The notes below the pieces were generated by a model. It saw only the letters and a list, made by a program, of their open reading frames with translations. It was not told the origin of the DNA and did no database searches. Position numbers and translations under genes: made by a program. DNA of 64,000 nt from Acarospora socialis (taxonomy: Eukaryota; Ascomycota; Lecanoromycetes; Acarosporales; Acarosporaceae): the NCBI GenBank assembly GCA_025617375.2, contig JAMYGW020000002.1, positions 1,488,001 through 1,552,000 on the forward strand. Direction: 5' to 3'. The number at the start of each line of letters is the position of its first letter. The first letter of the stretch is position 1. This document shows, one piece after another, positions 1 to 26,807 of the stretch.

Positions 1-3000
1 TCAAATACAAGAAGAAGCTGCAGATCACTGAAAAACAATATTTAATGAAGTTTATTGAATATAAAATGTTGATAAATGTATTTATTAATGAAGCATAAGT
101 ACATTTTAGCAAGCTGAACAGAAAAATTGCTGCAACTCAGTCTAATATAACTGATCTATTTAAGTCTGAGCAACAATTTCAGACATTTCTTTAAGCATTA
201 TCTGAGAATTATACAGTGATTCACAACACAATCAATACTCAAAACATTTCAAATATCAAGAGAAGTCTGCAGAAGCTTTAAGAGAAAAAGACACAATTAA
301 AAATTGTTGAGACTGTCTTGTAAACAGATTAATATAAAGAGAAAAACTCAATACACTTATATCAACATGATGTGAAATATCATTATTGAAGATTGTTAAA
401 CTTCAGCAATGATCATTCTTCTCAATATAAATCAGTTAAATATCTTTTCTGCTGTGATTCTCATCACATTTAAGACTGTGAATATCTTTCTGCTGCTTGC
501 AAAAATATTGAGTTAAAAAAATTATCTGTTTTAATTGCAGTTAAGTCAGTCAGAAAGTTGAACAAGTTGTTTGCAGACAATTCACATCATAAAAATAAAA
601 TAAAATTTAAGCACAGAAACAGAAAACATAGAGTTTTTGATGCTTATTTATATTTATTTATACTTCATTTTATAGTTCATATGCAGCAAACATGCACTAT
701 GATGAACTTGTGATAAGGTATTTGTTGAATATGCAGATTTATTCTGACAATTCATATGTATAATATATGAATTACAGATTTATTCTGATAATTCTAATTG
801 CTTATTGATCACTTCTGAGCAGTTAACCTGATTGTGAGCCTCAACAGCCAATAGTTAAGGAAATTTGGGGTTTGATGTCTAAATAATAGATAAATGATTG
901 TGTATATAGTGTCTTTTATAGACAACTAAGACCTGTAGAATTTTCATCACTTGTTTTTCTTATACAACTAGATGACTCAGTGATTGATTTGGTGGGTGGT
1001 GCAGAATTTGAACTCACAATCTTTGAAATTAAGCAATATACTAGTGGGGTCACTACTTCTCTAGTTTTTCACTTAATTTCTTAGATCACTCAAGCAGTAT
1101 ACATTCACTATACCACTTAATCACCCAAGTTTTTGATGCTGAGACTGAGAAAAACAATGATTCATTTTTATCTGAGTCTGATGCAAAGAAAGATAATGAG
1201 ATTGTTACTCTGTTTAAGAAAGCTGTCAGTAAAATATTTAGTTTTAAATGAGTTGTGAATTCTGAATATTTCATATACATAATTGATCAATGTTAACTCT
1301 TCAATGACTTTTTAATATGCATATGATGTTGAAGAATTAAAGTTGAAAGAAAACACTTATACTCTCATTACTATGAAGTAATTATGATACAGAATAAATT
1401 CAGAAACTTTATGAATCTGAGTTCAATACTTTATGTGTTTAAATTAAAAGTTAATCTTCTATCAAAAAAGCAAATATACAAAATGAAATTGCAGAAAAGC
1501 TTTGATCAGTACAGTTTATATATGCAAAATAAACATAACAATGTCATGAAAAAAGTGTCTGAGCAGAATAGTGTCTATATAATTAAATATATTGTAAAAA
1601 AACTGAATGAGTTCATTCTGTTATCTGTCATACACATGTTATTCAATTCAGAGATGACTCTTTTAGTTACAGTATTAAATGTGAATTCTCAGATGTAAAT
1701 TGACTCATCAAGCTCTGCTGACACTTCATTCTCTGTTGATACTTCATTTTTAAGTGAAAAGATCAAGATTTACAAGCTGTAACATCAACAGTTTGTTCAT
1801 CTTAACTCTGCAAAACTTTACAATCTTTATAAAAAGAACATATATAAAGTTTGTGTCATCATTAAGTTTATCAATCAGCATAAGCACACTGTAAGTGAGC
1901 AGAAGATCAACATTTTTGCTTTGATTTTCATTAATATATGTAATTTTTCATCTCTATCATTTATTGAACATCAGTACTTTCTGAAGATTGTGAACAACTA
2001 TTTTTGAAAGATATGAACAATACTGTTGAAGTGATGCAATAATGTTTCACAGAAACTATCAAAGTAACAATTAAAAATTGAGTTTCAGATCAGTGCAAAA
2101 ATGCTTGTTGTATAAAGTGACAATGTCACAGAATTAAGATCAATTCTGAATGACTAATGTAAATTTTTTGACATTACATTACAGTATACTGTGTTTTACA
2201 TATCTATTCAGAATAATATTGTTAAAAGAATTATCTGTATCACTGAGAATTCAGTGTACATCATGATTAAGAAAACAGAACTTTCAATAAAGTTCTAAAT
2301 AAAGACAGTGCAAATAAATATTTATCTTTACAACTGAACAGCAACTGATTTCTTAATTAATAACAGATAAATAACTTTGAAGAAAATCTTCACTAATGTA
2401 CAGCTGTTCATTGATTACATTTGTGTCTGAAGTTGCAAGTGCTACTTTTATATTGATTTCAAATTGTTACTGAAGAGTAGACAGAACAAATTTATGAATT
2501 AAGAATGAGTAAGAATCTTTATGAACTATATAAATAAAATTACAAAATAATATCTGCTTTGAGTTTCAGATCTTAAGTGAATCATCAAAAGTTATGCTGT
2601 AAAGTTCACTGAGAATGAAAAGAAAAACAGTGTTGATCTCAAACTGCAAAAATAAATGCTGAATATTCTGTCTGAACAAAAATTAGTTGAATAATTATGA
2701 AAAAATGCAGTCATCACAGATTTTACAACATTTACAACTCTGTCTACTGTCTCTAAGCAAACTTATACATTCAGATTTATAAGTTCAGATGATAAAAAAG
2801 AATTTAAATTAACTGTAGACAATCTTGATACATTCTTATCAGATATTTATATAATGAATAAATTGACTGTAATTAACTTAAACAGATTACAGACAAGTGA
2901 ATGAAATAAAATTAAGCAGTTTTTACATATTGAAGTTTCTGTCAGTAAAGCACTGAACATTTTAACTGAAGAAGTCAAAATATTCTTGTATATTAAGATT

Positions 3001-7106: not shown

Positions 7107-10100
7107 ACTTGCTGAATTAATCAGACAAGACTTCACATATTTCAATAAACTATACTTAGTGAATCAAAGACTTATCAATGCTGTAATCACAGTCTTATTA
7201 TTCAAACTTAATTCTCTTTCAGTACTCAATATCATTTTAAGTCAGTCTGAGTACAATTGAACAGTCAAGAGACTATGAACTTCTATTAAGAATTATTGAC
7301 AGATTACTCAATTCAATGAGCATCACAAATTCAGTATTTCTCAAACATCTATCTCATCAAGACAATCTTCTTCATATCAGTCTGAAGAACATTGCTTATC
7401 AGAATTCATTAAGAAACTTTCACAAGATAATAGTCTGTCTTCAAATCAGTTTTTGAGTTTCAAATCAAGAATGATGAAATAACTAAATCATGACAATATG
7501 TAGCAAATCATACAGACTGCAGTAATCACAGTATTAATTACTCATAATCAGCAAGAATCATCAAATTCATCAAAACTGCTGAAATCATTGAGACAGAACA
7601 GTAATGATGAAAATGATGACAATGAAGATAGTTGTTATGAATTTTAATCAAAGAATGTCAAATTCTTCAACTCAAACTTCAAACTTGATCTCATCAAAGT
7701 TAAAGACAATAAACAGCTGTATCACAATGTATTCAGCTTTACAAATTAAGTTTAAGTTATAGCTACTATCTTGAATGCAGCAACTCTATAACAAAATATT
7801 CAGTTTTGTTTTCTAGACAAGATAAATCACTGATACACTGAAGAATTAAATTATCTATCATGATTAGATTTACATAACATCAATGACATGAAGAAATAAT
7901 GTAAAACACTGAAAAGTCACTTTCAGAACTCATCTAGTTGAGCACTTGCACTACTTAAAAACATTTGCTATACAGTGCAGAACACACAACATCATCATAA
8001 TTCAGTCAATTATGTTCAATTCATTGTTCTACATGATCAGAACTCTGATATGATCACTATTGATATTACTTAAGTAAAATTAGTCTATGAGCATATGAAT
8101 GAGAAATTATATTGAGATCTATCTTGATCAAGTGATCAATTCACTATTGCAGATCTAATTGAGGTTCTTAATAAATAAAAGAATGTATGATTTAATATTT
8201 ATGTGCAAAATCAGTCAATGATATCAAATAGATCAGTGCAACAATCATACAGTAAAAATCATTCATTTCAATCTTATCAATTCTTTAATATCAGATTTGA
8301 TGAGCTCAATCAGTCTTGACTATTTCATTATGATCAATTTTCTTATGAAAGTCAATATTCTAATTATAAACAATAAAATAATCATCAACAAAATCAGAAT
8401 TGCAACAATACTGCAGAGAAATCTTGCTGATACTTACTGTTGTTACTGATATCTCATCAGTTTCTACAAATAACATTCAAAAACAAAAGATTGTCATTTG
8501 AACTGTATCAAAATCAATCTCACTACAATGCAAATGCAAGCTGATCTTATTATGATACTTCAAAATCACTCTATCAAGAAAATCATCTCTTATATTAACT
8601 ATATTGATCTTATCATTCTTCATATCAGTATGATAGATCACAGATTTATTACACAAAAAACAATCAATTACTCAATGAACAAAAGAAGTATCAAGCATAC
8701 AAGAACACATATTATGAAAATAATTCAGTTAGTAATAACAAGAACATCATCAAGAAAGAGAAGAAATCAGCTCTGCTGAATAAGAATTAACAAAATAATG
8801 TTATAAACATCAGTCACATCACAGAACTATTTAAGCTTGAATGTCACTTCTGTTGACAGTGTTTTCAGTTTAACAATCAGTTGCACAAACATCTGTGAGT
8901 CAAATGTGATCACAGTAAAATCATGACAAAAGTAACATTGATGTCATCAAAATTAACAGTAAAGACAGTCTCAAGTTTCACATCAACATACATCAAATTC
9001 ATCACTATGAATCAATTCAGTTCAAATGACTACAAGTTTTGAGAATGATGTTACACTATTATTGAAGTGCATCTGTCATCAACAGTCAAGAAAAAGTTCA
9101 TTTGTCTTAATATTGACTGTATCATGACTTTGATCAACATTCAGTTTCTTATGAAACAAGTATTTCATACAATAACTCATCATATGACATCATCTATATC
9201 AGTATAAGAATTAAACTCTGTCATTCATAATTCTGATCAGTATGTCAAGATAAATATTTATCTGTTTGAAAGAGATGATTAAATAACAATTATTTCATGA
9301 GAAATTCATATTGTTAAGAATCTCAAAATCAAAATGCTAGTTAATATGAACATTTTAGTATCTGAAGAAATAATCATGAATTTACTCAGACAGATAGTTC
9401 TTGTGAAAAGTTGTGAAAATATTGAACTCTCACTTACTATTACAATCAAGTTCATCAATCAGATTCAGCACACTGTTCTTGTTAAGAAATGCATTGTTAT
9501 TCTGTCTTAAAGCAATCTCACTGTTAGGGTGGTCAAGTGATATAGTGAATGTATACTGCTTGAGTGATCTAAGAAATTAAGTGAAAATCTAGAGAAGTAG
9601 TGATTTCACTAGTATATTGCTTAATTTCAAAGATCATGAGTTCAAATTTCACACTACTCACCAAAAATCAATCACTGAATCATTCAGTTGTGTAAGAAAA
9701 ACAAGTGGTGAAAAACTTCTACAGATATTAGTTGTCTATAAAAGACACTAAATACACAATCATTTATCTATTATTTAGACATCAAACCTCAAATTTTCTT
9801 AACTACTGGTTGCTGAGACCCACAAGCAGGTTGACTGATCAGATGTGACAAATAAGCAATCAGAATTATTAGAATAAATCTGTAATTCATATATTATACA
9901 TATGAATTGTCAGAATAAATCTGCATATTCAACAAATGTTCTATAATTGTCATAGCTATACAGCTGCATGCAATGTATGAAGAATAAATAAATAAATAAA
10001 TAAATAATCTCACTGTCACAGTTCTTTTGTCAAATTTATCAGATAATTGTAATTTTCTCTTTGAATCAAACTGCTGTTATGTTGATGCTGCAGTTTATAT

Positions 10101-11125
10101 TCACATAGTTGATCACACTATGTTGAGAGTACATGTACAAAATGATGATGATGTTTCACTGATAATTTCACAAAAATTCTGAATGAAACAAGTCATCAAA
10201 TACAAAGCTGAGAGCTGCTATCTGACTAGTTTAAAGAATGTCATATTAGTCTTGTTGTCTCATCAAAAAGAACAAGAATGAGTGCAAACAGCAATGAGAT
10301 TGATTTTAGCTGCTGTGATTATTTTTCATATCAGTATGAATGAATTGCATTCTCTTAAGCACAAATTACCTAATGACATTACAGTATACAGTAATTCAAT
10401 GCATTCATCAAAATTAAAACTGTTGTTCATGATCACACTAGTTTGTGACAAGATCACAGTAACATTATCAATATATTTGAACAGAAGTGAATGAACATAT
10501 CTTTTTTAAATAACTAACAAGAAAAATATAAATCAGAACAAGCTTGAGTTTACTTTTTAGAGATGAATAACTGTGTTATAGTTAATAAAGTCTTTGATAA
10601 GTTACACACTCAAGATTGCATGAAATAAATCAATACTATCACTTTATTCTCATTTCTGTGCTTCATTGTCTGACATATTTTACTCAACAACACTCAGAAA
10701 GACTGCATTGTTGTTAACATTAAAATTCTCAATAAAATCAGTATGTCAGATATCTATTCAGTATTCTTACAGGTCAATATTCTTGCTGTTATTTAAGATG
10801 TCAAATATATATTAACTGTGAATTGCAGTGCATACTTCTATCAATGATGTATCAATTCAAAGCATCAATATCATCTTACAGTTGTCTCTCATCAAGAACA
10901 AGAGATCTTTAAAATAGCTGTTATGAGTTATCACAATATATCAGTCTACATACTATGAATGATAAATCAGATCTTGTAATTACACTGAACTTATTTCTGC
11001 ATTTATGTTGACAATATTGTTATATTTTTAATTTCATTAACAGAGTATCTACATCATTTACAGAAAGTTTTTCAAGAACTAACTGTTAAACAGATCTGTC
11101 TAACTTCTGAAAAGTTCTTCTTAGA
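7107..11125 (+). mobile_element. Ty3/gypsy fossil A (Gag, protease, RT), 3' part lost
   Basis: Forward reading gives a Gag region near 7,640-8,750 and then a C2H2-like segment near 8,836-8,925 (C-x2-C, then N-N-x-L-H-x-H-L and a final C), a feature I associate with an ascomycete gypsy family. A retropepsin region lies near 9,095-9,480 and reverse transcriptase near 10,280-11,120, including the YVDD-type catalytic region close to 11,000. SINE copy 2 interrupts the protease downstream region at 9,525-10,005. The element stops abruptly at the LINE at about 11,130, and its RNase H and integrase are not found on the other side. Broken many times; old. Confidence 0.75.
9525..10005 (+). mobile_element. 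tRNA-derived SINE, copy 2 (plus strand)
   Basis: The copy is flanked by perfect 11-base target duplications AATCTCACTGT at 9514-9524 and 10006-10016. The head begins GGGTGGTCAAGTGATATAG at 9527, which fits an RNA polymerase III A box, and has a B-box-like GAGTTCAAATTTC near 9630. The 3' end reads CATAGCTATACAGCTGCATG followed by GAATAAATAAATAAATAA. That 3' end closely matches the 3' end of the LINE at 11,130. Its differences from copy 3 are mostly transitions. Inserted into gypsy fossil A. Confidence 0.93.
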
Positions 11126-11327
11126 GTATTATTATTTATATTTATTTATTCTTCATTCTATGCATGCAGCTATAAAAGCTATGGCAGTTAATAGACATAT
11201 AGTGAAAGATGTAGACACAAAACAAAACTCAAAATCTTGTACATGTGAATAATCAATCTGAATGCTTTTTGATCACTTCTGTTCAGTCAATCTGATGCTG
11301 ATTGTCAATCAATATCTTTCTTCTTTT

Positions 11328-14300
11328 CTAAATCTCATCTTCACTCTCAACTTCTTCTAATAGTCATTTTCTAGTAGCTACTTTGGTTTTCTTCAAAAAC
11401 AGCAAAGTAGCTTTGATTTCTTTCTTGATAGTAAACAGCATCTTTGCTGTGAGTGGTCAAGTGATATAGTGAATATATACTGCTTGAGTGACCTAAGAAA
11501 TTAAGTGAAAAACTAGGGAAGTAGTGACCCCACTAGTATATCACTTAATTTCAAAGGTTGTGGGTTCAAATCCCACACCACTCACCAAACCAACCACTGG
11601 GTCATCCAGTTGTATAAGGGAAACAAGTGATGGAAAATTCTACAGGTCTTAGTTGTCTATAAAAGACAATATACACACAATCATTTATCTATTATTTAGG
11701 CACCAAACCTCAAATTTCCTTAACTATTGGCCACTGAGGCCCACAATCAGGTTGACTGCTCAGGAGTGATCAATAAGCAATTAGATATATCAGACTAAAT
11801 CTGTAATTCATATATTATACTTATGAATTGTCAGAATAAATCTGCATATTCAACAAATGCTCTATCACAAGTCATCATAGTGCATGTTTGCTGATATAGA
11901 CTATAAAAGGAAGAATAAATAAATAAATAAATAGCATCTTTGCTGTATATGACAAATTGATGTTTCTGAGCTGATTTTTCAGCTCAATTTGCTCCTTTTT
12001 GTTATATTGACAGGCTGTCAACAAATGCTCTGGGGTTTGATCTTTGTTGCATGCATCATTGCATTTCTTGCTGTTATAGTCTGGTAATCTATGCAGATAT
12101 GCTTTGAAATAGTCATGATCTAGTTTCATTTGTGTAAAAGTAGCAAATGAAAGTCTGTCTGCACTTTTCAGATCTTCTTTGATGTGAAAACTAGGTGTTT
12201 GATCAAACTGAGCATAGTATCTTTCTTGGGTTGTCTTTTTCCAGTGGGTGGTCCAGTTTTCCAGTGCTTTGGCCTTGATTTTGTGTTTGATATAGCTAAT
12301 AGATGTAAATCTATCAATATCTGGTGAAATTGACTGCTTTGCACCTGATTTTGCAGCTTTATCTGCTATTTCATTGCCTTTAATGTTCTCATGTCCAGGA
12401 ACCCAATGAATATGAGGTGTAACTTCATAATCTATGAGTTTTTGAAGAGTTTCTTGACATTTAATAGCTAGATGCTGTCCAGATCCTTGATTTGTGATTT
12501 GAATTCTTTGTATAGCTGCTTGATTGTCTGAAAAGATCCATATGTCTTTGATTCTTTGATATTTCATGATTTCTTTGAGACTTAACTTCAAAGACTGTGA
12601 AATTCCAAACAATTCAGCATCATAGACTTCCATGGTGGTTTCTAGATTCCAAGATTGTTGATGTATAATATCTTTATACATGTAGCAAAGACCTGCACCT
12701 AGATTTTCATCTAGTTTTGACCCATCTGTGTATAGAATAGCATTTCTTGCTCTAGTTTCTTTAGAAACAAGTGTTTCTAATTTCTTTAGATGTTTCAAAG
12801 TAGCTAGTTTCTTGTCAGATTTGCTGATTTGAATGTCTATATTTGGTGAAACACTTCAAGGTGCACAGCATAACTCATTTTGAGTTGAAACCTCCAAATT
12901 TAGTGTTTCTGATAGATATTTGCAAATGCTATATAGCACTTTAATCAACTGAGTTGGGTGTTTCTTCTTAATGAGAGAGTTTGAATGTTGATTTCAGTCA
13001 AGATAATGATTTTCATCAATATCACATTCAGTTTCAAGTCCTGGTGGGTAGGTGTATGGAGTTCTTTGTTTAATTGAATGATTTTCTGACAAAGTAGCTA
13101 TTCTTAAAGCATATAGCTCTGTTTTTTGATCAAGTCTAAATCTGAGTGGTAGTATAGCTGATTCTAGCTCCATAGCAGCTGATGGTGAGGACCTAAATGC
13201 ACCTAGAATTTTTCTAGTTGCTGAATTTTGAAGTTTTTGAAACAGCTTTTCAAAATTCTTTTGTTGTTTTCACCATACTGAGCTTTCATAGTCACTTATA
13301 GATGTAATGCAAGCTGTATATAGCTGTTTTTCAGCTGATGTTGATAAACCCCATTCAGAATTCATCAGTCTATGCAGTAAATGCAATGTTCTAGTTGCAG
13401 AAGCTATTTTCTTTTGCACATGTGTCTTAAAAGACATTTTAGTGTCAAACCAAACACCTAGCCAGCATACAACTTTAGAAGGATGTATAACAGTGTTATT
13501 TGGTAGTTTTACTGTTGATATAGCTTGATTTTCTTTCTGAAAATGGATGAGTTCTGACTTGCTGTCATCAAATATAACTGCATTTTCTTCAGCTCATTGA
13601 AATGCAGTTTTTGTGACTGATTCTAGTGTTTTGCTGTTGTCTGCAGCTGTTTTTCCTTCCACAATAATAGTCACATCATCAATATAGCTTGGTAGCTTTA
13701 GTTGAGTGTGTTTATTGTTGATTTTTGTGAATAGAAATCACATATAGATCAAAAATAGCATTGGTGATATAGGTGATCCTTGTGGAATTTCAGAATTGAC
13801 ACTTTGTGAGTGATTTTTTTCACCATCAAAAGCTAGAGCAATTGTTCTATTTGTAAGAAAGCATTGCACCCATTTTAGTACAGTTTGTGATAAATGTAGT
13901 CTTTTCATGACTTTTAGCAGTTGATTTAAAGACACATAGTTAAATGCACCCTTAACATCCAAGAATAAAGCTGTCAAGACTTTGTTGTTGTTGATTGCTT
14001 GTTGAATGTCATGTGTTAAACACATAGCTGCATTCACAGCTGATCTTTGCTTTCTACCACTCATTTGCTCATGATATAGCAAGTCTGTGGTTTCAGCCCA
14101 ATAGGAAAGTCTTGTTGCCATTATCTTTTCAGATATTTTGCTCAAGCAATTTAGTAGAGTGATTGGTCTATATGCTTTGAGTATTGAATAGTCTGCTTTG
14201 CCTTCTTTTCTTAGAATTGCATCAGTTTCTTGATGCCTGCATACTGGATGATAGTCTTGATTTATTAAAACTGAATAAACAGTGTGAAATAACTCAGATA

Positions 14301-15806
14301 TAGCTTGATATGCATGTTGAATTATCAAAAAGGACAATTCATCTGGCCCAGGTGCTTTCTTTGTTGATGAAGTCATAATAGCTTGTTTTATTTCCTTAGA
14401 AATGACTGAAAACCATGATTTTGTGAGACTATTATCACATTCTAGCTCAACTGGACTTGTTTGAGGTGGTTTTGGAAACATAGCTTCAAGAAACAAGTCA
14501 CATTTGTCTTTAAATATGAGTCCCACTTTGTTTTCATGCTTTATAGAAGGTGTTTTCTCTATTTTTTGTGGTTTAGTGTAATGATATGCTGTAAAAACAT
14601 CTTTTCCAGCTGCACCTTGCAGAAAAGTAGTCCATAAGGTATGTTTGGCTTTCTGAATTGCGTGAAAGTATCTATTTCTTGCATTTCTGAATTGATTTCA
14701 GTTTTCTTGTGATTTGTGATGTTTTCAGTATCTTCTAAAACCACTCATTTCAGTTTTAAGTACTGATAATAATTCAGACCACCATACTTTGACTTTTGAA
14801 CAAGGTTTTCTCTTTGGTATATGCTGATCTGCTGCATTTGCTATCAGATTTCTGAGAAAAATAGTCATTTCTTTTAGATTTTGATCTGATAGATGTTGCA
14901 TTAAGCTTTAAATTTGAACACTGGTTTGTACTGAGTTTATTTGCAGAGTTTCTGCAAATTAACTCAGTCTGCTTTGTCTATATTGTATGATGCACTCAGT
15001 GGACTTTCAACCCATTCAGACTCATTTGCAGTTATTTGAAACTGAATAACTTCATGGTCTGATCCAGACTTCATGTCTTGATTTACTTGTCAATTTCTGA
15101 TGAAATTGCAAAGTAAGGGTATTGCAAAAGTCAAATCAATCACTGATGTGGCATTTTCTGAGTGATGTGTATAGGTGTTTATGTCTGGTGTATTTAATAG
15201 CTCACAGTTGTGAATTTTCAATCACTTTATTAAAGAAGTAGCTCTTATAGAGTTTTCTATTGATGAATTCCACCATGCATGATGTGCATTAAAATTCCCA
15301 CAGATAATAGCTCTTTGTGGTAGTTGAATTGCTGTTAAACATCTGTCTATGGTTCATTGATCATTGTTGATTTGCTGTGACTTTTCATTGTATATGTTAA
15401 GTAACAGTATACTAGAAATTCCATTTGCTGAAATACTGAGTATTTGCAAATCTGAGTCTTTTGACAAGTCAGATCTTGATATACACACTAAATCTTGTTT
15501 AGTTTTAGACACAAATGTCATAGTTCTAGATCTAATATCTAGATTAGATGTGGATATCAAACTAGTAAAAGATGAATGTGAAATAGTGATTTTGTTGTCT
15601 CTTACAACTCATGATTCTTGAAGAAGAACTATGTCTGCAGTTTTTGTAGCTGAATTCAGACATGAGTACATGACATTCATAGATCTTGTGCAGTTGTGTT
15701 GTAGAATGGTGATTTGTGATGAATTTGTTGTGTTATTCATGACATTTTCATAGATAGTGGATCTGCTGTTGAAGAAATAGGCTGTAGTGCTTTGAAAACA
15801 CTGCAT
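11328..15806 (-). pseudogene. LINE ORF2: endonuclease, reverse transcriptase, RNase H
   Basis: Multi-domain ORF2 polyprotein of the LINE. The APE-type endonuclease starts with ITILQHNC near 15,720 and has the (I)CG-FNAHHAWW motif near 15,260-15,300 and the SDHE motif near 15,060. Reverse transcriptase has KAPGPDELS near 14,350, the IPQGSPISP block near 13,770 and catalytic YIDDVTI near 13,670. RNase H has YTDGSK, AELFG, SDNQAA and HWVPGH-x7-AD between 12,740 and 12,320, so all four acidic residues are present. A C-x3-C-x7-H-x4-C element follows near 12,030. The longest uninterrupted pieces are 13,738-14,526 and 11,875-12,798. Several in-frame stops and frame changes separate them. After the SINE, the reading frame continues (FTIKKEIKATLLFLKK) to a stop at 11,328-11,330. 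Confidence 0.85.
11451..11932 (+). mobile_element. tRNA-derived SINE, copy 3, inserted in LINE ORF2
   Basis: This is the best preserved copy, 482 bases. Perfect 14-base target duplications AGCATCTTTGCTGT flank it at 11437-11450 and 11933-11946. The head is visibly a tRNA. GAGTGGT (11451-11457) can pair with ACCACTC (11577-11583), which is followed by ACCA. A perfect T arm, GTGGG-TTCAAAT-CCCAC, occupies 11560-11576. The A box is TGGTCAAGTGA. The head is about 137 bases long, longer than a tRNA, because of an internal segment with an inverted AAGTGATATA/TATATCACTT pair. The body (about 11,590-11,900) is unique to the SINE, and the tail is GAATAAATAAATAAATAAAT. Confidence 0.95.
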
Positions 15807-17326
15807 TCTGCACTATTTGCTTGATGTTTCTCACCACAATTGCTGCATTTATAGACTATATGTGCGCAAGTGGTTCCTTTTGACTGTGTGGAACAAAGAA
15901 AACAGTCATGTTCTCTAGTATTGTGGTTTTCTGCACAGAATTGACATGTGTCTTGATTTTTACATACTTTTTGAGTATGTTCAAACTTTTAACACTTTCT
16001 GCATTGATCTGTTGGTTTGCAAGTGTTGTAGACTGCAGTTCTAACTGATGTTCCAGCAATTATCAGTCTGTTTCTGAGTGCTTTTTGAGCTTCTTGTTCT
16101 GATTTGACTGTCAAGACAATAGATGCATGCTGTTTTTCCTGTCTGGCTTCTTCTGAAGTAAGTCAGTGTGGTAAAATAGCTAGTTTGATATCTTTGTTGA
16201 AGGTTTCTACTTCATCTTTGACTAGTTGCATGTCTTCTTTGCTGTTGAAAATAGCTGTGGGAATTCCATGTGCTACTATTTTGTATCACTTTTCATCCTT
16301 TTTGATTTCTATGAATTCAGATGATGAATTTCAGATTTATTGATGTTTTAGCAAGTCTTCTGCTGTGTCTTCACTGATTGTGAGCACTATACTAGCTTTG
16401 GATTGTGAAATAGCAACTGTGAAAACCAGCAAATTGTCTATTTTTGCTGTTTTAAGTGCATTGTTGATTTTGTTGCACATGTCTATGACATTGATAGTAG
16501 TTGTGAGTGTTTTTGACTTTATAACTAGACATCTTTCTCTGAAAGTAATGAGTTTATTCACTACTTTTGACTTTGATGCTTTTTTTTGAACAGTTGTCCA
16601 TGAGTTTTGAGCATTTTGATCTTTGCTGCTTGCAATTGATGCATATGTTGCTGATTTCACTGTTTTTGTTGATGTTGACTGTTCAAAGCTGGTTTTGTTT
16701 GTCTGTACAAAGTTAATAGAGTTTGTTTTGTTTGTCTGAAAGACAAATGCTAATTTCTCTGTGATTTCTGACTTTGTTTTAGATATTGTGTGAAGAATTT
16801 TGTCTAGTTTGATGTTGACTTCATCTTTGAAGCTGTCTAGTTATTGTTGAACATCTAGTTTCTGATGAAATGCTTCATCTGACTGTTTGAGTGAGTCTAG
16901 ATTTGCATTTTGTCTTGCTTGATTCAGTGTCTTGATGCTAGTTTCTAGTTCTTGTTGAACTATAGGGTTTGTGAATTGCTGAATAGCTTGCTTGAGGTAG
17001 TTTCTGACTTGTTGAAGTAGTTTGTCACCATTTTGGCTTTTTGAGTGTAGGTTTGTGCAGTTTGCATGATGAGTTTCATGCTGATTTGATGCTTCATCAG
17101 AAGAAATAGCTTCTAGCACTGAACTGGCAATGGCTCTTCTCTTTTTAGACTTTAGAATAGTCTTTTGAGAAGATTTCATGATGATTTGTGATTTCAACAG
17201 ATCTGGTGAACTCATAAAGAGTTGTGAAAGTGCTGTTTTTGATGATTTTTGTTGTTTTGTAGATGTTTTTGGGTTTTCTAGATTGAAATCTTGCATGAAG
17301 TTGCTGGAATCCAGTGCAAAAGTCAT
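15780..17326 (-). pseudogene. LINE ORF1: Gag-like protein with CCHC knuckles
   Basis: The start at 17,326 reads MTFALDSSNF. The first 161 codons are open to 16,841, after which the frame resumes as KSATYASIASSKDQNAQNSW at about 16,660. The C-terminal part (15,990-15,790) has repeated C-x2-C-x4-H-x4-C knuckles, including CQFCAENHNTREHDC and CSNCGEKHQANSAEC. This is the usual arrangement for ORF1 of I/Tad1/CgT1-type LINEs, where the protein coats element RNA. At least two in-frame interruptions are visible. It ends at or just overlapping the start of ORF2, whose first methionine could be the one at 15,806. Confidence 0.75.
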
Positions 17327-18660
17327 GATATGAGGTGTTTTTGGGGTCCATTCTGTTCAAATTCAAAATCCTATTCAAATTCAGGTCCAGAAGGTCTATG
17401 TCTAGCAGTATTTATCTAGTTTTTGAAGGTAAAAACTAGATTTTCCTGAGATTCTAGATTATAGAAGCTTTGAATTCTTATTTCATCTAGAATAGACTGT
17501 ACCCAATTGCCTAATTCAGATGTTGCTTAATATCCCAATTCACCTAGAGTAGATAAACTCTACAATAGGCTTTTACCAGCTCTACTATAAGCAAGACTAT
17601 ACTATAAGTCACTCAACCACTAGGTCTTGGGGCAGATGCATCTAGGGCAAGATTTCCACGTGAAGCCTCATATTTATATCCCAACTACTATGACAACGTT
17701 GTTTGCCAGTCTGAGCTTTTATCAGCAGGTAGGGCTAGAAAATAGCTACCTGCTTATACCCTTCACTAGGTCTTTGTGAGATGCTTCTAGTGTAGGGTAT
17801 GTCTTCACTGGTAGGTTCTTTCTGCATGCAAAACACTAATCAATTGACAGAAGAAATGCTCAAATTCCAGCTAAATCCGTCAAGAAATGGCTATTTTGCG
17901 GCTAGTTTTTGCGGAAACTGCGTGCAGTTGCTGGAATTGAGCAATTTGGTGTAATTCAGCCTGTAATGCTTAGAAATTTGACCTGAAACGCTGGTTTTTG
18001 GGCGAAAATAGCTGAAAAGTAGTCAATTTTGTTGATAAAATAGCTTGTTTTGATGGTGGAGCTATGTAGGTATGTTGTATGATGCGTGAATTGATATAGC
18101 TTGGTGTGTATAGGCTGGAATTGCTGCGTAGTTGGCGTAAAAGTGGTGTTTTTGGTGTTTTCTTGGTTGTTTTGGTGTTTTTGGTGTTTTGGTGTGAGTG
18201 AGGCTTAGTTGAGGTATTTGATGATGCTTGGTGTGCAGAAATTCTGTCAAGCAAGCTAGAAAAATTAAGCAAAAATTTGCGAACTTCAAAAACTAGATAC
18301 TAAGGGGTACAACTAAACAGTCCAACAACTTTGTGAGCAATAAAGATATCAAAAAGCAGTAATAGTATGAATTTTAGAAGAGATCAAGGTGAAGAAAACT
18401 GTTGATTCAGAATTTTCAAAGATGCGTTGGTTGTGGCAATGTTGATGTCCAAAATGTTGTTTTGGTTTTTGGCAGGAGGTATGCGAAAAATTTTGGGAGA
18501 ATAGTAATTGAGGTTTCTCACCACCAGTATTGATGATGAAGATAAGCTGTTTTGAGGGTTTATGAAAGTGAATGAGACAAAGAATTTGCTCTATTCAGAA
18601 TTTTGATAGCTGGTTTGGTTGTGGTTCTGTGGTTTTTCCGTGGAATTTTGTCCATGAGGT

Positions 18661-21113
18661 ATTTCTTACAATAGTGAAAACACTACAAAACTGAAGATTT
18701 TATCTCACAAAAATAAATAAGTCAATTCAGATCTATACAGATCACAAGAATCTGAGAAACTTCACAATAACTAAGTAACTTAATCAACAACAAATTCATT
18801 GAATGAAGCAGTTGACAGATTATGAATTTCAGATTCATTATAAGAAAAATAATAAAAATGATGAAGCAAATATCTTAAGTAGACAACTCAATCATGAAGA
18901 TGTACAGACAATACATGCTGAAATTCTCAGCAAAGATAACAATAAAATTCTCACAAAGAACTTAATAGCAATGCACAAAATAAAGCAAACTTTCTTAACA
19001 GATAAAAAACTCATCAGAATATATCATTACAGCAGAGCTGAAGAACATCTAAAAGTTAAATGCACTGAGAATTTAATGCAAAGAAGATGCAACATTAATG
19101 ATTTTAGAAATTGAATCATCAAAATGATTGCTGTGTATAATTCATGCTGAAGAAATAGAATTAATTAAAATAAATAATACAACAAAGTAACATAACTGAA
19201 TGCATCAGATGCATTATGAAAATTAGTTATTATGAACTTCATTATGAAGTTATTATCATCAAAAGACTCAACATAAAAGATAAAGTTCAACAGTATATTG
19301 ATCATAGTGAACAGATTAATCAAGTACACAATGTTCATTTCATTCAAAAAAACTGCAACAGCATCAGTATTGATATACATTATATTGTAAGAATTGATTA
19401 GCAATCATGAGCTATTAAAGAAATTTATCATCAATAAAGACAAACTGTTTACAAGCAAATTTTAAAAAATGCTCACAGCAGAACTCAGAATAAAGCATAA
19501 AATATTAATGATATATTATTTACAGATGAATGAGCAGAGCAAATGAATGAATTAAACAGTAAAAATGTACTTGAAACACTATGTCAATAAGAATCAGAAC
19601 AATTGAGTACAACTGTTGTTAACAACACAGTTTGTGTACAACAATATCAAGAACAAAATCATGAAAAAGACATCTTTCTTTATGAATTATAACTACAATT
19701 CAAAGATATAACAAGATTCACAGAGACACAGATTACAGAGTCAAAAAGTAATTTTGAATATTACTTAATTAAAGAAACTGCATCAAGATCTAACAAAACA
19801 GATTAGACAGCAGATAGAATGAACAATAAAGACAAAATTATTTAGAAAAGAAAAAAAGATATACTTAAAAACAAACAAAATAAAAACAAAAGAAAAAAGC
19901 AAAAAGCTGAAGAACAAAAGCATTGAATCATTCAAGATCATATGAAATATTAAGAAATTAAACTATGAGTTAGACTTACTCAAGAAGATGAGAATACACT
20001 CAATATTTCATATATTCATGCTACAGCACTGCAATCAGTTCATATTACTTTAAATCACTGAAATATCTGTTAAACTCAACAAAGAATATGAAGTTAAAAA
20101 TATTTTAAAGAAGAAAATGATTAAAGAAGAAGTTCACTATCTCATGAAATGAAAAAAATATAATATCTTGAAAAATATCTGAAAACTCAAAGAAAATCTC
20201 AAGAACTGCACAAGAACACTTCAATATTTTGAAAAAGAAAATTAATATTAGTTTAAAAGAATGAAGACATTAAGTTCATGAGTTATGATATTGTTTAAGA
20301 ATCTTCATTCTCAGTCTCATCATTATCACTATTAAGTTCAACAGCAAGACAGTTGATCTTTTGTGAAGCACAGTGATTTATTCAGTTCAGAGTTTTCTGA
20401 AAATGCATAACTTTCAAAGATAGAGTGAAAAGCTCAGTGTATTTGATTGCTAGTTTGCTGTTTGCTTTACTTATTTTCTTTTGAAGTGAAAAATAAGTTT
20501 TATTGAGAGACTTTTACAATACACTGACACATGAATGATCATGATGAGTACACTTATTATATTTTGATCAAGATTTCATTACAAAACAATTGATGTTGCA
20601 ATTGACACAATAGTCACAAGAGAACAGAGTAGATACATCATCAATCTGAATTTTCTTTGCAATTCTTAGACAATTGAAATTTTTAGAAAGCATCATCACT
20701 GATGATGAACAATGTGAATACTCTTGCTTATATAGATCTAGAAAATTAGCATTTAGAATAGAAAGAATGATGTTATGATTATATTTAAAAAAATAAAGTA
20801 CAAACTAACTTATATACAGAAAGAGTGTTTGACAGATTATCTGTTAAGATGAGAGTCATGTGACATTTTAACATGTTTGATGATGAGCTTGATGAGCAAG
20901 TTTGATAAATTGCATGAGTGAGTCAGCTTGATAGATTTGACAGTGAGACTGATGAGTGAGCTCAATATATAGTTACAATCATTTTTCTTATGAAAAGAGT
21001 CATGTTCAACTTAAATAACAATTTAAAAATTAAAGTTCAGAATCATTTCAGATCAGCTTTTATATCAATAAGTACAACTTTTAGTTCTTATACAAGAGAA
21101 ATCTTCTGTAAAA
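18661..21113 (+). mobile_element. Chromodomain Ty3/gypsy fossil B1, 3' part
   Basis: Forward reading starts inside RNase H (TDHKNL near 18,740). It continues with an HHCC-type zinc region and integrase core (about 18,990-19,620), and a chromodomain near 20,060-20,240 (EVKNIL, then HYLMKW-like and NCTRTLQYFEK), placing it among chromoviruses. It ends in an LTR (20,771-21,113). Gag, protease and RT are absent; the element is cut off at the LINE. It belongs to the same family as B2 on its right but in the opposite orientation. Broken many times. Confidence 0.75.
20771..21113 (+). repeat. 3' LTR of gypsy fossil B1, split by B2
   Basis: Begins TGTTATGATTATATT and is the reverse complement, diverged, of the 360-base LTR of B2. 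It shares for example TTCTTATGAAAA and GTTCAACTTAAATAACAAT. The last few bases of this LTR are separated from the rest by insertion of element B2 and lie just after 26,812. Confidence 0.7.
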
Positions 21114-21473
21114 TGTAACATTCTAATCTGAGATTTCTTGAGTATGTAGAGTTAAGAGTTTGTGCTTATTGATATAATAACTGGTCTGAAATGGTTCTGG
21201 TCTTTAACTCTTAGATTGTTATTTAAGTTGAACATGATTGTTTTCATAAGAAAAATGACTCTACTATATAGAATGTGCTTGATGTCTCTGCATTGAGCAT
21301 TCTTGATGTCTTGATGTCTCAACATCAAGAGATTGAGTTTCAGCTTGTCTGCTCATCATTGAGTTATTGTGCTGTTATGTGACTGCTGTTTAACAGTTCT
21401 TTTTGTACACACTCTGAGTGAACTTTTGATCACAGACTCACAAGTTTTTTTCTTTTCAGATATGATCATAACA
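21114..21473 (-). repeat. LTR of B2 (3' LTR in element orientation)
   Basis: 360 bases, starting TGTAACATTCTAATC and ending GATCATAACA as read on the plus strand. It aligns without gaps to 26,448-26,807. Preceded by the target duplication TAAAA. Confidence 0.92.
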
Positions 21474-24400
21474 TTATTTTTTCTCTTCAGGTGCTAGTTC
21501 TCTAGAATTTATTTAAGTGAGAGTATATAACAATTCTGTCACTAGCAACAATGCTTTTTAAAAATTTCAATTGTCTAAGAATTGCAAAGAAAATTCAACT
21601 CAGTGGTAGTCTCATCACATTTTCTTGTGAATTCTGTACTGCTTGCAGTCTTGATTGCTTCATCATGATTGATGAAAGATCAAAATGCAATAAGTATACT
21701 TGCTGCAGTCATTCTTACATTGCAGTTTTGTGAAAGTCTCTTGACAGAACTTGTCTTTCTTTTTGAAAGAAAATAAGTGATGTGAATGTGATTCTTGATA
21801 CTCTTACTGTCAAGATAATATGTTTTCAGAAGACTTTGAATCAAATGAATTGTTGTGCTGCACAGAAGACTGACTATCTTGTTGCTGAACTTAATAGTGA
21901 TAATGATGAAACTGAGAATGAAGATTCTCAAACAATGTTGTAACTTATTGACTTGATATTGTCATTCTTCTGAGCTAATATTGACTTTCTTTCTTAAAAT
22001 GTTGAAGTGTTCTTACACAGTTCTTGAGATTCTCTCTGAATTTTCAGATGTTTTCTGAGATATCATAATCTTTTTACTTGATGAGATAATGAGTTTTCTC
22101 ACTAATCATTCTCTTTTCTAAAATGTTCTCAACTTCATATTCTTCTTTGAGTTCAACAGATGTTTCAATGATTTAAAGTGATATGAATTGATTACAATGC
22201 TGTAACATGAATACATAAAATATTGAGTGTATTCTCATCTTCTTAAGTAAGTCTAGCTCATAGCTTAACTCTTTGATGTTTCATGTGATCTTGAATAATT
22301 CAATGCTCTTGTTCTTCAGCTTCTTGCTTCTTTCTTTAGTTCTTATATTGTTCATTTTTAAGTATATCTTTTTTTTTTTCTCAAATAGTCTTGTCTTTAT
22401 CATTCATTCTGTTTGCTGTTCAATTCATTTCATTAAATCTTGATGCAGTTTCTTCATCTAAGTGATATTCAGAATCACTTTTTGACTTTATGATCTGTGT
22501 TCTTTGAAATCTCATCATATCTCTGAGTTATAATCATAGTTCACATAGAAAGATGTCTCTTCTGTGATTTCATTTTTTGCATTGTTGTATGTAAACTGTG
22601 CTGTTGATAACAGTTGTACTCAGTTGTTTTGATTTCTGTTGACATAGTGTCTCAAGTATATTTTTACTGTCTGATTCATTTATTTGTTCTGCTCATCTGT
22701 CTGTGAGTAATATGTTGTTAATATTTTGTGTTTTATCTTGAGTTCTGCTGTAAGCATTTCTCAAAACTTGTTTGTAAACAGCTTGTCTTTATCAGTGATA
22801 AACTTCTTTGATAGTTCATGATTGTTAATCAATTCTCACAGTATAATGTATGTCAATACTGATGCTGTTACAGTTTCTTTGAATAAAATGAACATTGTGT
22901 ACTTGATCAATCTATTCACTATTATCAGTATACTGTCAAATCTTACTCTTCATGCTGAATTCTTTGACAGTGATAGCTTCATAATGAAGTTCATGATAAC
23001 TGACTCTCATGATGCATTTGATGTGTCTAGTTGTGTTACTTTGTCATATCATTTATCTTAATTGATCTTGTTTCTTCAGCATAAATTGCACACAGCAATC
23101 ATTCTGATGACTTGATTCTGAAAATTGCTAATGTTGTGTTTTCTTTGCACTAGATTCTTAGTGCATTTAACTTCTAGATGTTCTTCAGCTCTGCTGTAGT
23201 GATATATTTTAATGAGTTCTTTGTTTGTTAAGAAAGCTTGCTTTATCTTGTATGTTGCTGCTAAGTTCTTTGTGAGAACTCTGTTGTTGTCTTTGCTCAG
23301 AATTTTAACATGTATTGTCTGTACATCTTCATGATTAAGTCATCTACTTAAGATATCTGCTTCATCATTCTCATTACTTTTCTTGTAATGAATCTGAAAT
23401 TCATAGTCTGTCAACTGCTCTGCTCAATGAATTTGTCATTGATTGAGTTGCTTTGTCATTGTGAAGTTTCTCAGATTCTTATGATCTGTATAGATCTGAA
23501 TTGACTTGTTTGTTTTTGCAAGATAAGATCTTTAATCTTGTAATGTCTTCACTATTGCAAGAAGTTTCTTATCATGAATCTTATATCTTTTCTTGAGTTC
23601 TGATAGTTTTCTAAATTGATATGCTATGAGTTTTTGTTGTTCATTCTTAATTTAATATAGACATATTTTTACTGTGAAATCTGAAGCATCAGTTTTCAGT
23701 GTTTTCTCACATGTTGAATTGAGTATTCTCAGATGTGTCATTTCACTAAAACTTCTCTTTAATATGTGAAATGCATTCTTCTGCTCTTGACTTCAATGTT
23801 ATTTTTTGTTTTTGTGCATCAAATGCATTAGTGATTTCACAATTCTTGCATAGTTTGATACAAACTTTCAATAATAGTTTGTTAGTTCTAGAAAGACTTG
23901 TACTTTCTTAATCTGTTTCAGTGTTGATCAGTTTTTGACTACTTTCATTTTCTTTGAATTCTTCTTGATTTGTTCAGATTGAATCACATAGTCTAAAAAC
24001 TTAACTTTCTTGATCTTGAATCTGCTTTTTGACTTTTTCACATATAAGACTTTCTCATTGAGCTTCATCAATATCTTATGCACATACTCTCAGTGCTTCT
24101 CAAGATCTTCTGAATATATTAGAATATCATTAAGATATGTGATCACAAAATCATTGAGATATTCTCTCAATATGTTGTTGATCAATCTCTGAAAGATGAC
24201 TGATGTGTTTTTTAATTTAAATGACATGACAGTATATTCATAGTGTTCATATCTTGTTCAAAATGCTGTCTTTCATTCTTCATCTTCTTTCATTCTAACT
24301 TGATAATAGACATTCTTAAGATTTAAGCTTGTGAATCACTTAGTCTTATTTAGTCAGTCTTGCAACTCTTCTATCAGCAGTAAAGAATAACTGTCTTGAT

Positions 24401-26447
24401 GAGTTATCTCATTGAGTTGTCTGTAGTCAACACATAGTTATTTCTTGTCATTCTTCTTTAATACAAACAGAATTGAGTATTCTGCTGGTGATTTTGATGA
24501 TTTTATGAATTCTCTCTTAAGATTCTCATCAAGGTAAGCTCTAACTTTCTTGAGTTGGTCTTTGCTCATTGAGTATAATGATATTCACTTAGATTGCTTT
24601 TCATTCAATAGCAATATCTTGTGATTTCATGACTTATGCTCTGATAAGCTCATCTTTGATTGTTTAAGAATCTCATATATGTTCTTGATTACACATATCT
24701 CTTTTGTAATTTAATCAATTTTCAGATTTCTTCTGTGCAATCAGGGCATCTCTAGTATCACATTGTATTCAATTGATTTCATCACATCAAACATTATCTC
24801 TTGTGAGTTTTCAAGAATTGAGACTTTCACACAGATTTTCTCATTGATTCTTTCAATGATTTCATTTATCATTTGTATGTTGAATGAACAGCACACTCAT
24901 CATGTCACTAATTCTAACATGTTGACTATCTGTCAACTCATAATGTTATCATCAAATTCTTTGCATATCTCTGCTTTCTGATTTTAAGTTTTTTGCTTTT
25001 TCTTCTGCATTGTATTGCAGTTTGATGTCATTTCTTTCTGAATATTTAAATCTCTTTTGATCTTTGTTCAATACTTTCTTGAGAGCTCTATCTCAGCATT
25101 GTTCAAACTTTCTTCTGTGAGTGTATTGCTATCAAGAAATATTCAAGATTCATCAATTTAAAATTCATGATCATCAATTTCTTCAATATCATCTTCAAGA
25201 GCATTGTCTTCTTTCTCAGCATCAAGAATTCTTTTCTTGATAAGAGTAGCTAATTCTTTTTTGTAGATTGATCAACTCATTGTGTTATATTCATTCTTCA
25301 CATCTTTGCACAGTTTCTGAGAGTATCATCTGACTTTATCTTTTGCACTCATGTGTACTCTGTACATGTCATTGTAACAGGTTGTTCAGTTAAGAATGTT
25401 GTGCACTATATGTGTATTCTTTTTAACTATCACTGCAATATTTTTTCTTTTCATCTGAGATTTGTTGCATTCTCAAACAAGATGTCTGAGTTTTCTGCAG
25501 TTGTAACACATTTATATCTTGTTTTGTGATGTTATCTGAGACTTAGTGAATCACTCTGACTGACATTCATGCTCTGTTCATTTAGTCTTTTATGATTTCT
25601 GATGATGCTTCTTGATTGTATTGAGATTCATAGAGTTTATCTTTCTATATCTTATTAATAAAACATATCACTTCATTCACAGTCAGAAGCTTTCTTCTTG
25701 ATCTTCTATCATAGATGACATTCAATATTTTTTTGGTTTCATCTGTTGTTTTCATTGACAACTATTAATATTGATACTCAAATCAATCATTTTCTGAAGA
25801 TTGTCTGATTGTTCTGCTTGAGCTATCTTGTCTTTGATGAACTTTCTTAACTCACAATAGTACTGATAGATGAGTGCTTCATTATTTTATCTAATAAGTG
25901 TTGTTAATTGCTGAAACTCTGTGACATATACTGTTGCTGATTCACTCTGTCACAAGATGTAAACTTGTTTCTTAACTGCTCTTTCTTCATTAATCACTTC
26001 AAAGACTTTTCTTAAATCTTTCTTAAATCATGCATAGTCATTGAACATAGACTCTGTGTCTGCATTGTGTTCTTTGTATTTTTTCTTTAGAAACTCATGC
26101 AGTCTGAGATCAATTCAGTTGAAGACTGCATTCACAGATAGATTGTTGCAAACAGTGTCTTCTCTTGATTGATTTAAAACTTTAATTGATTAAATTCAAT
26201 GTACAGATCAAGTTTAACCACAAAGACTTGCAGCTTTTCTCTTTCTTCATCAAAGATATCTGATATCTGTATCTTGAGTGCACTCAGAAATAGTTATATC
26301 ATCAGAGCTGACATCACTGATTGAGCTGTCACTCTATCTGAAGTAAATAGTAGAGATGAATTTGTCTGAACTTGTTTCAAGAACAAAGTTGAGACATTCT
26401 TCTGTGTGTCAGACATTGTACTCATTATATCATAAAAATGTTCAAAG

Positions 26448-26807
26448 TGTAATGTTCTAATCTGAGATTTCTTGAGTATGTAGAGCTAAGAATTTGTGCT
26501 TATTGATATAACAACTGATCTGAAATGATTCTGGTCTTTAACTCTTAGATTGTTATTTAAGTTGAACATGATTGTTTTCATAAGAAAAACAACTCTACTA
26601 TATAGAATGTGCTTGATGTCTCTGCATTGAGCACTCTTGATGTTTTGATGTCTTAATATTGAGAAATTGAGTTTCAGCTCATCTGCTTGCTATTGAGCTG
26701 TTATGCTGTTACATAACTGCTGTCTAGCAGTTCTTCTTGTATATGCTCTGAATAAACTTCTGATCACAAACTCATGAGTTTTTTTCTCTTCAGACATGAT
26801 TGTAACA
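26448..26807 (-). repeat. LTR of B2 (5' LTR in element orientation)
   Basis: 360 bases, starting TGTAATGTTCTAATC and ending GATTGTAACA as read on the plus strand. It is the partner of 21,114-21,473 and is followed by the target duplication TAAAA. Confidence 0.92.

Follow-up and report, generated by a model that had tools for sequence, protein, structure and literature searches.

Does the SINE found in this window (the whole 64-kb stretch of DNA analyzed here) share its 3' end with the resident LINE, and is that LINE the partner that moves it? Sharing the end of a larger element in this way is the usual route by which a SINE exploits the copying enzyme of a LINE. Where a SINE and a LINE have a 3' end in common, the pair reveals the RNA signal read by the LINE enzyme, and the portions of the literature available to us name few fungal pairs, three in all (Mg-SINE/MGL, SINE2-1_BG/Tad1-24_BG and AfuSINE2-1a/I-1_AF).

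SINE copies and the LINE that one of them interrupts

The window contains three complete copies of a SINE of about 480 bp (S1, S2 and S3), each with a tRNA-like head. The copies are short and non-coding, with precise ends, target-site duplications and a simple-repeat 3' tail of the (AATA)n type, the features expected of a SINE. The elements are as follows.

641..1128, minus strand: SINE copy S1, complete, with the alternative terminal module; target-site duplication AGTTTTTGATGCT at 632-644 and 1128-1140
9527..10007, plus strand: SINE copy S2, complete, with the LINE-like terminal block C; target-site duplication AATCTCACTGT at 9514-9524 and 10006-10016
9982..10005, plus strand: (AATA)n tail of S2
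11452..11934, plus strand: SINE copy S3, complete, with the alternative terminal module; target-site duplication AGCATCTTTGCTGT at 11437-11450 and 11933-11946
11913..11932, plus strand: (AATA)n tail of S3
11132..18655, minus strand: Tad-like LINE, split by S3; 3' end at 11132, with 18655 an outer guess for the 5' end
11132..11151, minus strand: LINE tail GAATAAATAAATATAAATAA

The target-site duplications are perfect around all three SINEs (13 bp for S1, 11 bp for S2 and 14 bp for S3), so each terminus was already there at insertion. A profile containing the copies matched S1 with an E value of 1.4e-165, a match that arises by construction. S3 was inserted into the 3' part of the LINE ORF2, and the frame is open across the empty site, which together with the 14-bp duplication bears out the placement of this copy inside the LINE by the initial annotation. 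Depletion of CpC/GpG is least in S3 among the SINE copies.

The LINE matches RVT_1 (PF00078, 1.8e-19) and RNase_H (PF00075, 2.6e-12), with two of eight pieces matching a family at E 0.01, and also Exo_endo_phos_2 (PF14529, 1.3e-19). The domain order is APE-type endonuclease, reverse transcriptase (RT) and RNase H, as in a Tad1-clade LINE, and PDB entries for LINE-1 and R2 proteins match the RT piece. The LINE 3' end, read on the minus strand down to 11132, consists of CATAGCTTTTATAGCTGCATGCATAGAATGAAG followed by AATAAATAAATATAAATAA, as first annotated. Exact candidates for a LINE target-site duplication were 9 nt or shorter and were not located at both ends, and the 5' limit is therefore an outer guess. 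With the RT piece, one stretch in viral contigs and 95 stretches in prokaryotic genome contigs fitted the pattern, and none was a relative. SINE patterns of 27 and 20 bases had no match in the viral contigs, nor did the 27-base pattern in the genome contigs. Since the collections searched were those of viruses and prokaryotes, the missing relatives of either element tell little. The RIP-like pattern and the type of LINE point to a fungal host.

We analyzed the SINE head by folding, motif comparison and tRNA prediction, with the following features in S3.

11452..11587, plus strand: tRNA-like head from relaxed ARAGORN and folding, with an acceptor-like stem and CCA
11454-11464, plus strand: box A-like motif
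11563-11573, plus strand: box B-like motif GGTTCAAATCC

The two box motifs were identified against the box A and box B consensus. On folding, the acceptor-like stem of the SINE head pairs and carries CCA. ARAGORN at default settings called no tRNA across the window; relaxed settings, with introns of up to 120 nt, gave tRNA calls with 29- to 44-nt introns in the SINE heads. These calls disagree in identity (Ser in two copies and His in one), and we gave up assigning a tRNA identity for that reason. All 11 Rfam matches in the head score under their gathering thresholds. Among those listed, the only tRNA-clan match is a 17-nt T-arm-like piece of S3 (11560-11576) to tmRNA (14 bits; gathering score, 47), with one lower-scoring match of the same clan besides; we set aside the other ten as chance or hairpin-only. 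The box A- and B-like motifs, the acceptor-like stem with CCA and the relaxed ARAGORN calls suggest a tRNA-like head that is putatively tRNA derived.

Homology at the 3' ends

The SINE 3' domain and the LINE 3' end share two co-linear blocks (A and C), followed by the same terminal repeat, an (AATA)n-type tail of the AATAAATAAATA kind.

11247..11294, minus strand: block A in the LINE 3' region, identical in 36 of 46 alignment columns to S1, 36 of 45 to S2 and 32 of 39 to S3
783..830, minus strand: block A in S1
9827..9874, plus strand: block A in S2
11748..11795, plus strand: block A in S3
11152..11209, minus strand: block C in the LINE, its final 58 nt ahead of the tail, with 43 of 56 columns identical to S2
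9924..9981, plus strand: block C in S2

Block A (about 45 nt; for example, GGTTGACTGCTCAGGAGTGA in S3 versus GATTGACTGAACAGAAGTGA in the LINE) is present in all three SINE copies, and none of 2,000 shuffles reached its score in any of them. Block C, which occupies the final ~55 nt ahead of the tail, is present in S2 alone (0/2,000 shuffles). The distance from the start of block A to the tail is 143 nt in the LINE and 155 to 168 nt in the SINEs. Outside the blocks, in the SINE 5' body and in the stretch that separates A from C, resemblance to the LINE is at chance level. The second, further-in block of the initial annotation holds in every copy. A similarity confined to the 3' end together with the same kind of tail repeat, which the annotation named as support for the pairing, is also borne out among the copies here. 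The terminal CATAGCTATACAGCTGCATG that it credited to the SINE copies in general occurs in one of the three, S2, whose 3' end reads CATAGC-TATACAGCTGCATGCAATGTATGAAG and then (AATA)n.

We removed the tails and aligned each SINE with the final 300 nt of the LINE. S2 scored 96 and S3 scored 66, values reached by none of 1,000 shuffles and none of 492 real AT-rich segments, and S1 was weaker, with its score reached by 1 of 1,000 shuffles and 2 of 492 segments; the comparison covers one LINE copy and three SINE copies, and as the SINE copies are kin, the three tests are not independent. When the window was scanned on both strands in 100-nt segments, the best non-self places for the LINE block A were the three SINE copies (scores of 54, 51 and 50; next unrelated place, 38), and the best for the last 48 nt of S2 was the LINE 3' end (47; next unrelated, 33). 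Searches with nhmmer against the 7,025-nt LINE, tails included, placed S2 (6.8e-11), S1 (1.3e-5) and S3 (1.1e-4) at its 3' end, with all other single-copy matches in the LINE at E values of 1.1 or worse. A three-copy profile, tails included, matched the same end at 1.3e-9, with the next match at 0.056. Purine/pyrimidine recoding is blind to RIP-type changes at a cost in information; after recoding, the S2 terminal block was still matched by 0 of 1,000 shuffles, and the upstream 140 nt gave a weak signal (57, 258 and 10 of 1,000 for S1, S2 and S3, respectively).

GC content in the region is about 30%, dinucleotide bias is strong, and S1 alone comes near the real-segment control, as would be expected if AT-rich, RIP-degraded sequences with a common simple repeat tail resembled each other by chance. 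The tail-free block tests and the two-strand scan, in which the SINEs and the LINE 3' end account for the high non-self matches, largely refute this explanation, and we regard it as hardly credible. It is very unlikely that the SINE and the LINE each took their blocks from a third repeat: this origin would fit homologous blocks set apart by unrelated sequence, but the blocks are co-linear and 3' terminal in both elements, where tail repeats of one kind follow them, and the scan found no third carrier in the window.

The shared blocks are 77 to 82% identical between SINE and LINE with gap columns counted, and 21 of the 33 substitutions are transversions, so RIP alone does not explain the differences. 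This divergence and the transversions point to the window LINE as a relative, or cousin, of the donor. Of the matched pair originally proposed, then, the shared 3' end and the tail repeat stand, with the terminal match in one copy of three, and the LINE here is probably a relative of the donor and at most a candidate partner.

Two termini in one SINE

Two of the three copies carry, in place of block C, a terminal module that they share with each other.

663..720, minus strand: alternative terminal module in S1, identical in 47 of 52 columns to that of S3
11855..11912, plus strand: alternative terminal module in S3, identical in 47 of 52 columns to that of S1

S2 diverges abruptly from S1 and S3 past ...CAACAAATG, and the body before that point is 87 to 91% identical. 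Against the LINE terminus, the S1 module had a local score of 18 and the S3 module a score of 15, with 914 and 1,584 of 2,000 dinucleotide shuffles, respectively, as high or higher; a 60-nt version of the test gave 1,110 and 1,681. Elsewhere in the window, the module was found only as matches of 19 nt or less. After recoding, S1 and S3 still resembled each other (0 of 1,000 shuffles as high or higher) and remained unlike S2 (204 for S1 and 62 for S3), and we therefore rejected RIP as the source of the terminal difference. The copy nested in the LINE, S3, is one of the two with the alternative terminus. Because two of three copies, including the least-depleted S3, lack block C, this block is not a general requirement for mobility.

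If the S1/S3 module were the same LINE terminus after far-reaching divergence, there would be no exchange to explain. When the alignment of the last 58 nt was anchored at the end, S3 showed a slight signal (23 of 1,000 shuffles); S1 showed one after recoding (22 of 1,000), and the tail-adjacent bases are similar by eye. However, the converse tests were at chance (159 for S1 end anchored and 357 for S3 recoded), as were the local tests, and the body just upstream is 87 to 91% identical between copies, so that we consider this origin unlikely.

A serious contender, just short of probable, is that the SINE has its true partner in another LINE family or subfamily related to this one, that the window LINE is only a cousin, and that the S1/S3 module is the tail of that family. 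The module occurs in two independent insertions and is at chance against this LINE's terminus, and in each copy two to three transitions and four to seven transversions separate block A from the LINE, a difference that is not simply RIP. Against this partner, the terminal block of S2 matches the window LINE in 43 of 56 columns, their tail repeats are of one kind, and the module itself appears elsewhere in the window only as the short matches noted above. It is possible, though doubtful, that template switching placed the terminal ~55 nt of the resident LINE onto a SINE of the S1/S3 type and so yielded S2. The sharp break after a body that is 87 to 91% identical favors such a graft, and LINE-driven template switching that joined Mg-SINE and MGL is described for Magnaporthe in the part of that report available to us (PMC2104539). 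But block C (43/56) is no closer to the LINE than block A (36/45), and hence need not be a recent graft, and three copies are too few to settle the polarity.

From the directly observed homology, co-linearity, tail, duplications, nested insertion and two termini, we infer transcription, recognition, partner identity and terminus exchange as follows. The element is quite probably a SINE with a pol III-type tRNA-like head and a 3' domain (block A, spacer, terminal module and (AATA)n tail) descended from the 3' end of a related Tad-like LINE. Pol III would transcribe it, the LINE reverse transcriptase would recognize its RNA by the LINE-like 3' domain and the repeat tail, and target-primed reverse transcription would insert the copy with an 11- to 14-bp target-site duplication. 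We count the endonuclease, RT and RNase H domains of the LINE in favor of such LINE-driven copying. The two versions of the terminal ~55 nt among three insertions would be explained most simply by terminus exchange, whether reverse transcription switched templates between SINE and LINE RNA or the SINE took up the tail of another LINE. We tentatively propose a constant LINE-derived block A and an exchangeable terminal cassette (the last ~55 nt of the resident LINE or another), both forms being mobile, with recognition mainly through block A and the repeat tail and the cassette swapped by template switching or a change of LINE partner.

The main interest of this locus lies in its two alternative termini. 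One SINE with a terminus that matches the resident LINE and another that does not would let the parts of the signal be separated and would provide a documented case of terminus exchange in a fungus.

Known SINE-LINE pairs

Stringent-type LINEs and SINEs commonly have a terminal stem-loop, according to the part of PMC3747384 available to us. The last 40 to 58 nt of all four sequences here fold within chance (z of -1.40 to +0.79, in four degraded single copies that give the test little power), and they do not display this mark of a stringent-recognition LINE; with energies no better than shuffles, we dropped the stem-loop as a candidate recognition signal.

A fungal SINE-LINE pair with a shared tail is less of a rarity than was originally supposed, since such pairs are already described in the accessible portions of three papers (PMC3747384, PMC2104539 and PMC5063351), and the present pair joins them. 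Mg-SINE of Magnaporthe is tRNA derived and, as here, has a 3' end similar to that of a resident LINE, MGL (MGR583) (PMC3747384, PMC2104539); by description only, the two termini and the blocks split by unrelated sequence seen here go unmentioned in the portions available. In Blumeria graminis, SINE2-1_BG and Tad1-24_BG are tabulated as a pair sharing 3' ends (PMC3747384), and by that description a tRNA SINE goes with a Tad1 LINE, comparable to the putatively tRNA-derived SINE and the Tad-like LINE here. Positions 210-335 of AfuSINE2-1a, from Aspergillus fumigatus, are similar to the 3' UTR of I-1_AF, a LINE of the Tad clade (PMC5063351). Its described LINE-like 3' part and short terminal repeats resemble ours, but its repeat is ACT, whereas here it is (AATA)n and the LINE-like terminus is in one of three copies. 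Outside fungi, the reptilian Squam3 SINE has subfamilies that differ in their simple-repeat tails, and a tuatara SINE related to it differs in its head and LINE-derived region, as far as the available part of PMC7983390 describes them. Squam3 is thus also one SINE with variant 3' parts among subfamilies; unlike the element here, it is a vertebrate SINE with a CORE domain and similarity to L2 LINEs, whereas in ours the tail is constant and the preceding ~55 nt vary.

SINE copies and their setting

The degraded repeats are located in the AT-rich left 28 kb of the window, which has 26 to 36% GC in 2-kb steps, and GC content to the right is 48 to 55%. The elements analyzed here are three complete SINE copies and a non-LTR element (LINE):

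641-1128, minus strand: SINE copy S1, ~480-bp element, perfect 13-bp target-site duplication
9527-10007, plus strand: SINE copy S2, ~480-bp element, perfect 11-bp target-site duplication
11452-11934, plus strand: SINE copy S3, ~480-bp element, perfect 14-bp target-site duplication
11132 to at most about 18655 (5' limit an outer guess), minus strand: LINE, from Pfam domain matches

A search with a profile built from S1, S2, and S3 found no additional full SINE copy in the window. The copies are 87 to 91% identical pairwise across their common body, and the differences are mainly transitions (transitions versus transversions of 30:7, 32:5, and 40:12 for the three pairs). S3 shows the least CpC and GpG depletion. 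Positions 1 to 27900 carry a RIP-like signature in an unusual combination of dinucleotide contexts, in which the older repeats lack CpG, nearly lack CpC/GpG (observed/expected [O/E] ratio, 0.00 to 0.13), and have elevated CpA/TpG (O/E, about 1.5 to 1.7); CpG O/E is 0.91 in the GC-rich right part.

The SINE head appears tRNA-like: it has box A- and box B-like motifs and a CCA-bearing acceptor-like stem, and ARAGORN gave tRNA calls there under relaxed settings that tolerate introns. ARAGORN at default settings called no tRNA in the window. Among tRNA-clan models, Rfam matched only a 17-nt T-arm-like piece of the head, to tmRNA and below the gathering score, along with one lower-scoring match from the same clan. 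Inside the tRNA-like fold is a long internal hairpin, GAAATTAAGTG...CACTTAATTTC (11489-11560), where cmscan gave a weak mir-551 match (28.3 bits; gathering score, 51) that most likely reflects the hairpin only.

The LINE and neighboring repeats

Pieces of the LINE match Pfam families for an endonuclease of the APE type (PF14529, 1.3e-19), for reverse transcriptase (PF00078, 1.8e-19), and for RNase H (PF00075, 2.6e-12), a layout like that of Tad1-type fungal LINEs. Six of the eight LINE pieces in the Pfam search that gave the reverse transcriptase and RNase H matches had no family at an E value of 0.01, nor did the cysteine/histidine-rich ORF1 stretch. S3 is inserted in the 3' part of ORF2, and the frame is open across the site once S3 and one duplication copy are removed. 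The LINE terminus at 11132 reads GAATAAATAAATATAAATAA, and a search for the LINE's own target-site duplication found none. The assumed 5' region (17340-18655) retains some CpG (O/E, 0.34, versus 0.01 in the LINE ORFs), which could reflect fewer 5' copies through 5' truncation or non-LINE sequence. The window also contains a large inverted repeat (18654-20426 and 21800-23572; 1,773-nt arms, 82% complementary, 1,373 nt apart) and a 300-nt direct repeat (21110-21409 and 26444-26743; 89% identical, start-to-start spacing of 5,334 nt), possibly LTRs.

Similarity of the SINE and LINE 3' ends

With tails included, the last 190 to 210 nt of each SINE aligned locally and co-linearly with the last 176 to 183 nt of the LINE, and the sole strong nhmmer match of each copy to the 7,025-nt LINE was at its 3' end (E values of 1.3e-5 for S1, 6.8e-11 for S2, and 1.1e-4 for S3). 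With repeat tails removed, S1, S2, and S3 scored 63, 96, and 66 in alignments to the 3'-terminal 300 nt of the LINE, values reached by 1, 0, and 0 of 1,000 dinucleotide shuffles and by 2, 0, and 0 of 492 real AT-rich window segments.

The initial annotation had described a SINE sharing its 3' end with the resident LINE. A 48-nt piece of the 3' domain, block A, bears this out in all three copies (0/2,000 shuffles each), and the last 58 nt do so in S2 alone (0/2,000, versus 914/2,000 for S1 and 1,584/2,000 for S3). The stretch between the blocks did not match (1,982, 2,000, and 1,659 of 2,000 shuffles for S1, S2, and S3), and the SINE 5' body was at shuffle level against upstream LINE sequence (1,631, 1,587, and 716 of 2,000). 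In window scans, the best non-self matches to LINE block A were the three SINEs (54, 51, and 50; next unrelated, 38), and that to the last 48 nt of S2 was the LINE 3' end (47; next unrelated, 33). No terminal stem-loop above chance was found.

These last 58 nt of S2 are termed block C; in their place, S1 and S3 share another module, identical between the two in 47 of 52 columns. A few of its tail-adjacent bases resemble the LINE by eye. End-anchored alignment of the module with the LINE terminus (S3, 23/1,000 shuffles; S1, 159/1,000) and purine/pyrimidine recoding (S1, 22/1,000; S3, 357/1,000) leave room for a remote relationship, suggested by the former for S3 and the latter for S1. For the upstream 140 nt, end-anchored alignment gave 9, 4, and 0 of 1,000 shuffles for S1, S2, and S3. 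Recoding, which is blind to RIP-type changes but discards information, was weak there (57, 258, and 10 of 1,000) and still gave 0/1,000 for the S2 terminal block. Block A in the three copies and block C in S2 together differ from the LINE by 33 substitutions, 21 of which are transversions. RIP alone is therefore insufficient to account for the SINE-LINE divergence, and the substitutions favor reading this LINE copy as a relative of the donor.

Proposed mobilization and published SINE/LINE pairs

Most likely, the SINE RNA would be transcribed from an internal promoter, recognized by a Tad-like LINE enzyme through the (AATA)n tail and the 3' domain that derives from a LINE, and inserted by target-primed reverse transcription. 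Both types of terminus directly abut perfect duplications, so each belonged to the RNA that was inserted rather than arising afterward. The terminus of S3 does not match the LINE into which this least CpC/GpG-depleted copy inserted; mobility therefore cannot depend on block C in general. With three copies, the existence of two termini is compatible with template switching, with a switch to another partner LINE, or with strong divergence.

The listed literature matches, in their titles and abstract openings, named no fungal SINE family with two termini, which does not prove absence. Template-switch chimeras containing both Mg-SINE and MGL, whose 3' ends are similar, are reported (PMC2104539), and template switching is likewise proposed as a source of SINE chimeras in an insect (PMC3272025). 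A review table pairs Mg-SINE with MgL/MGR583 and SINE2-1_BG with Tad1-24_BG (PMC3747384), and AfuSINE2-1a is described as resembling the 3' untranslated region of I-1_AF (PMC5063351). Given these fungal pairs, the SINE/LINE pairing seen here is of a kind already known.
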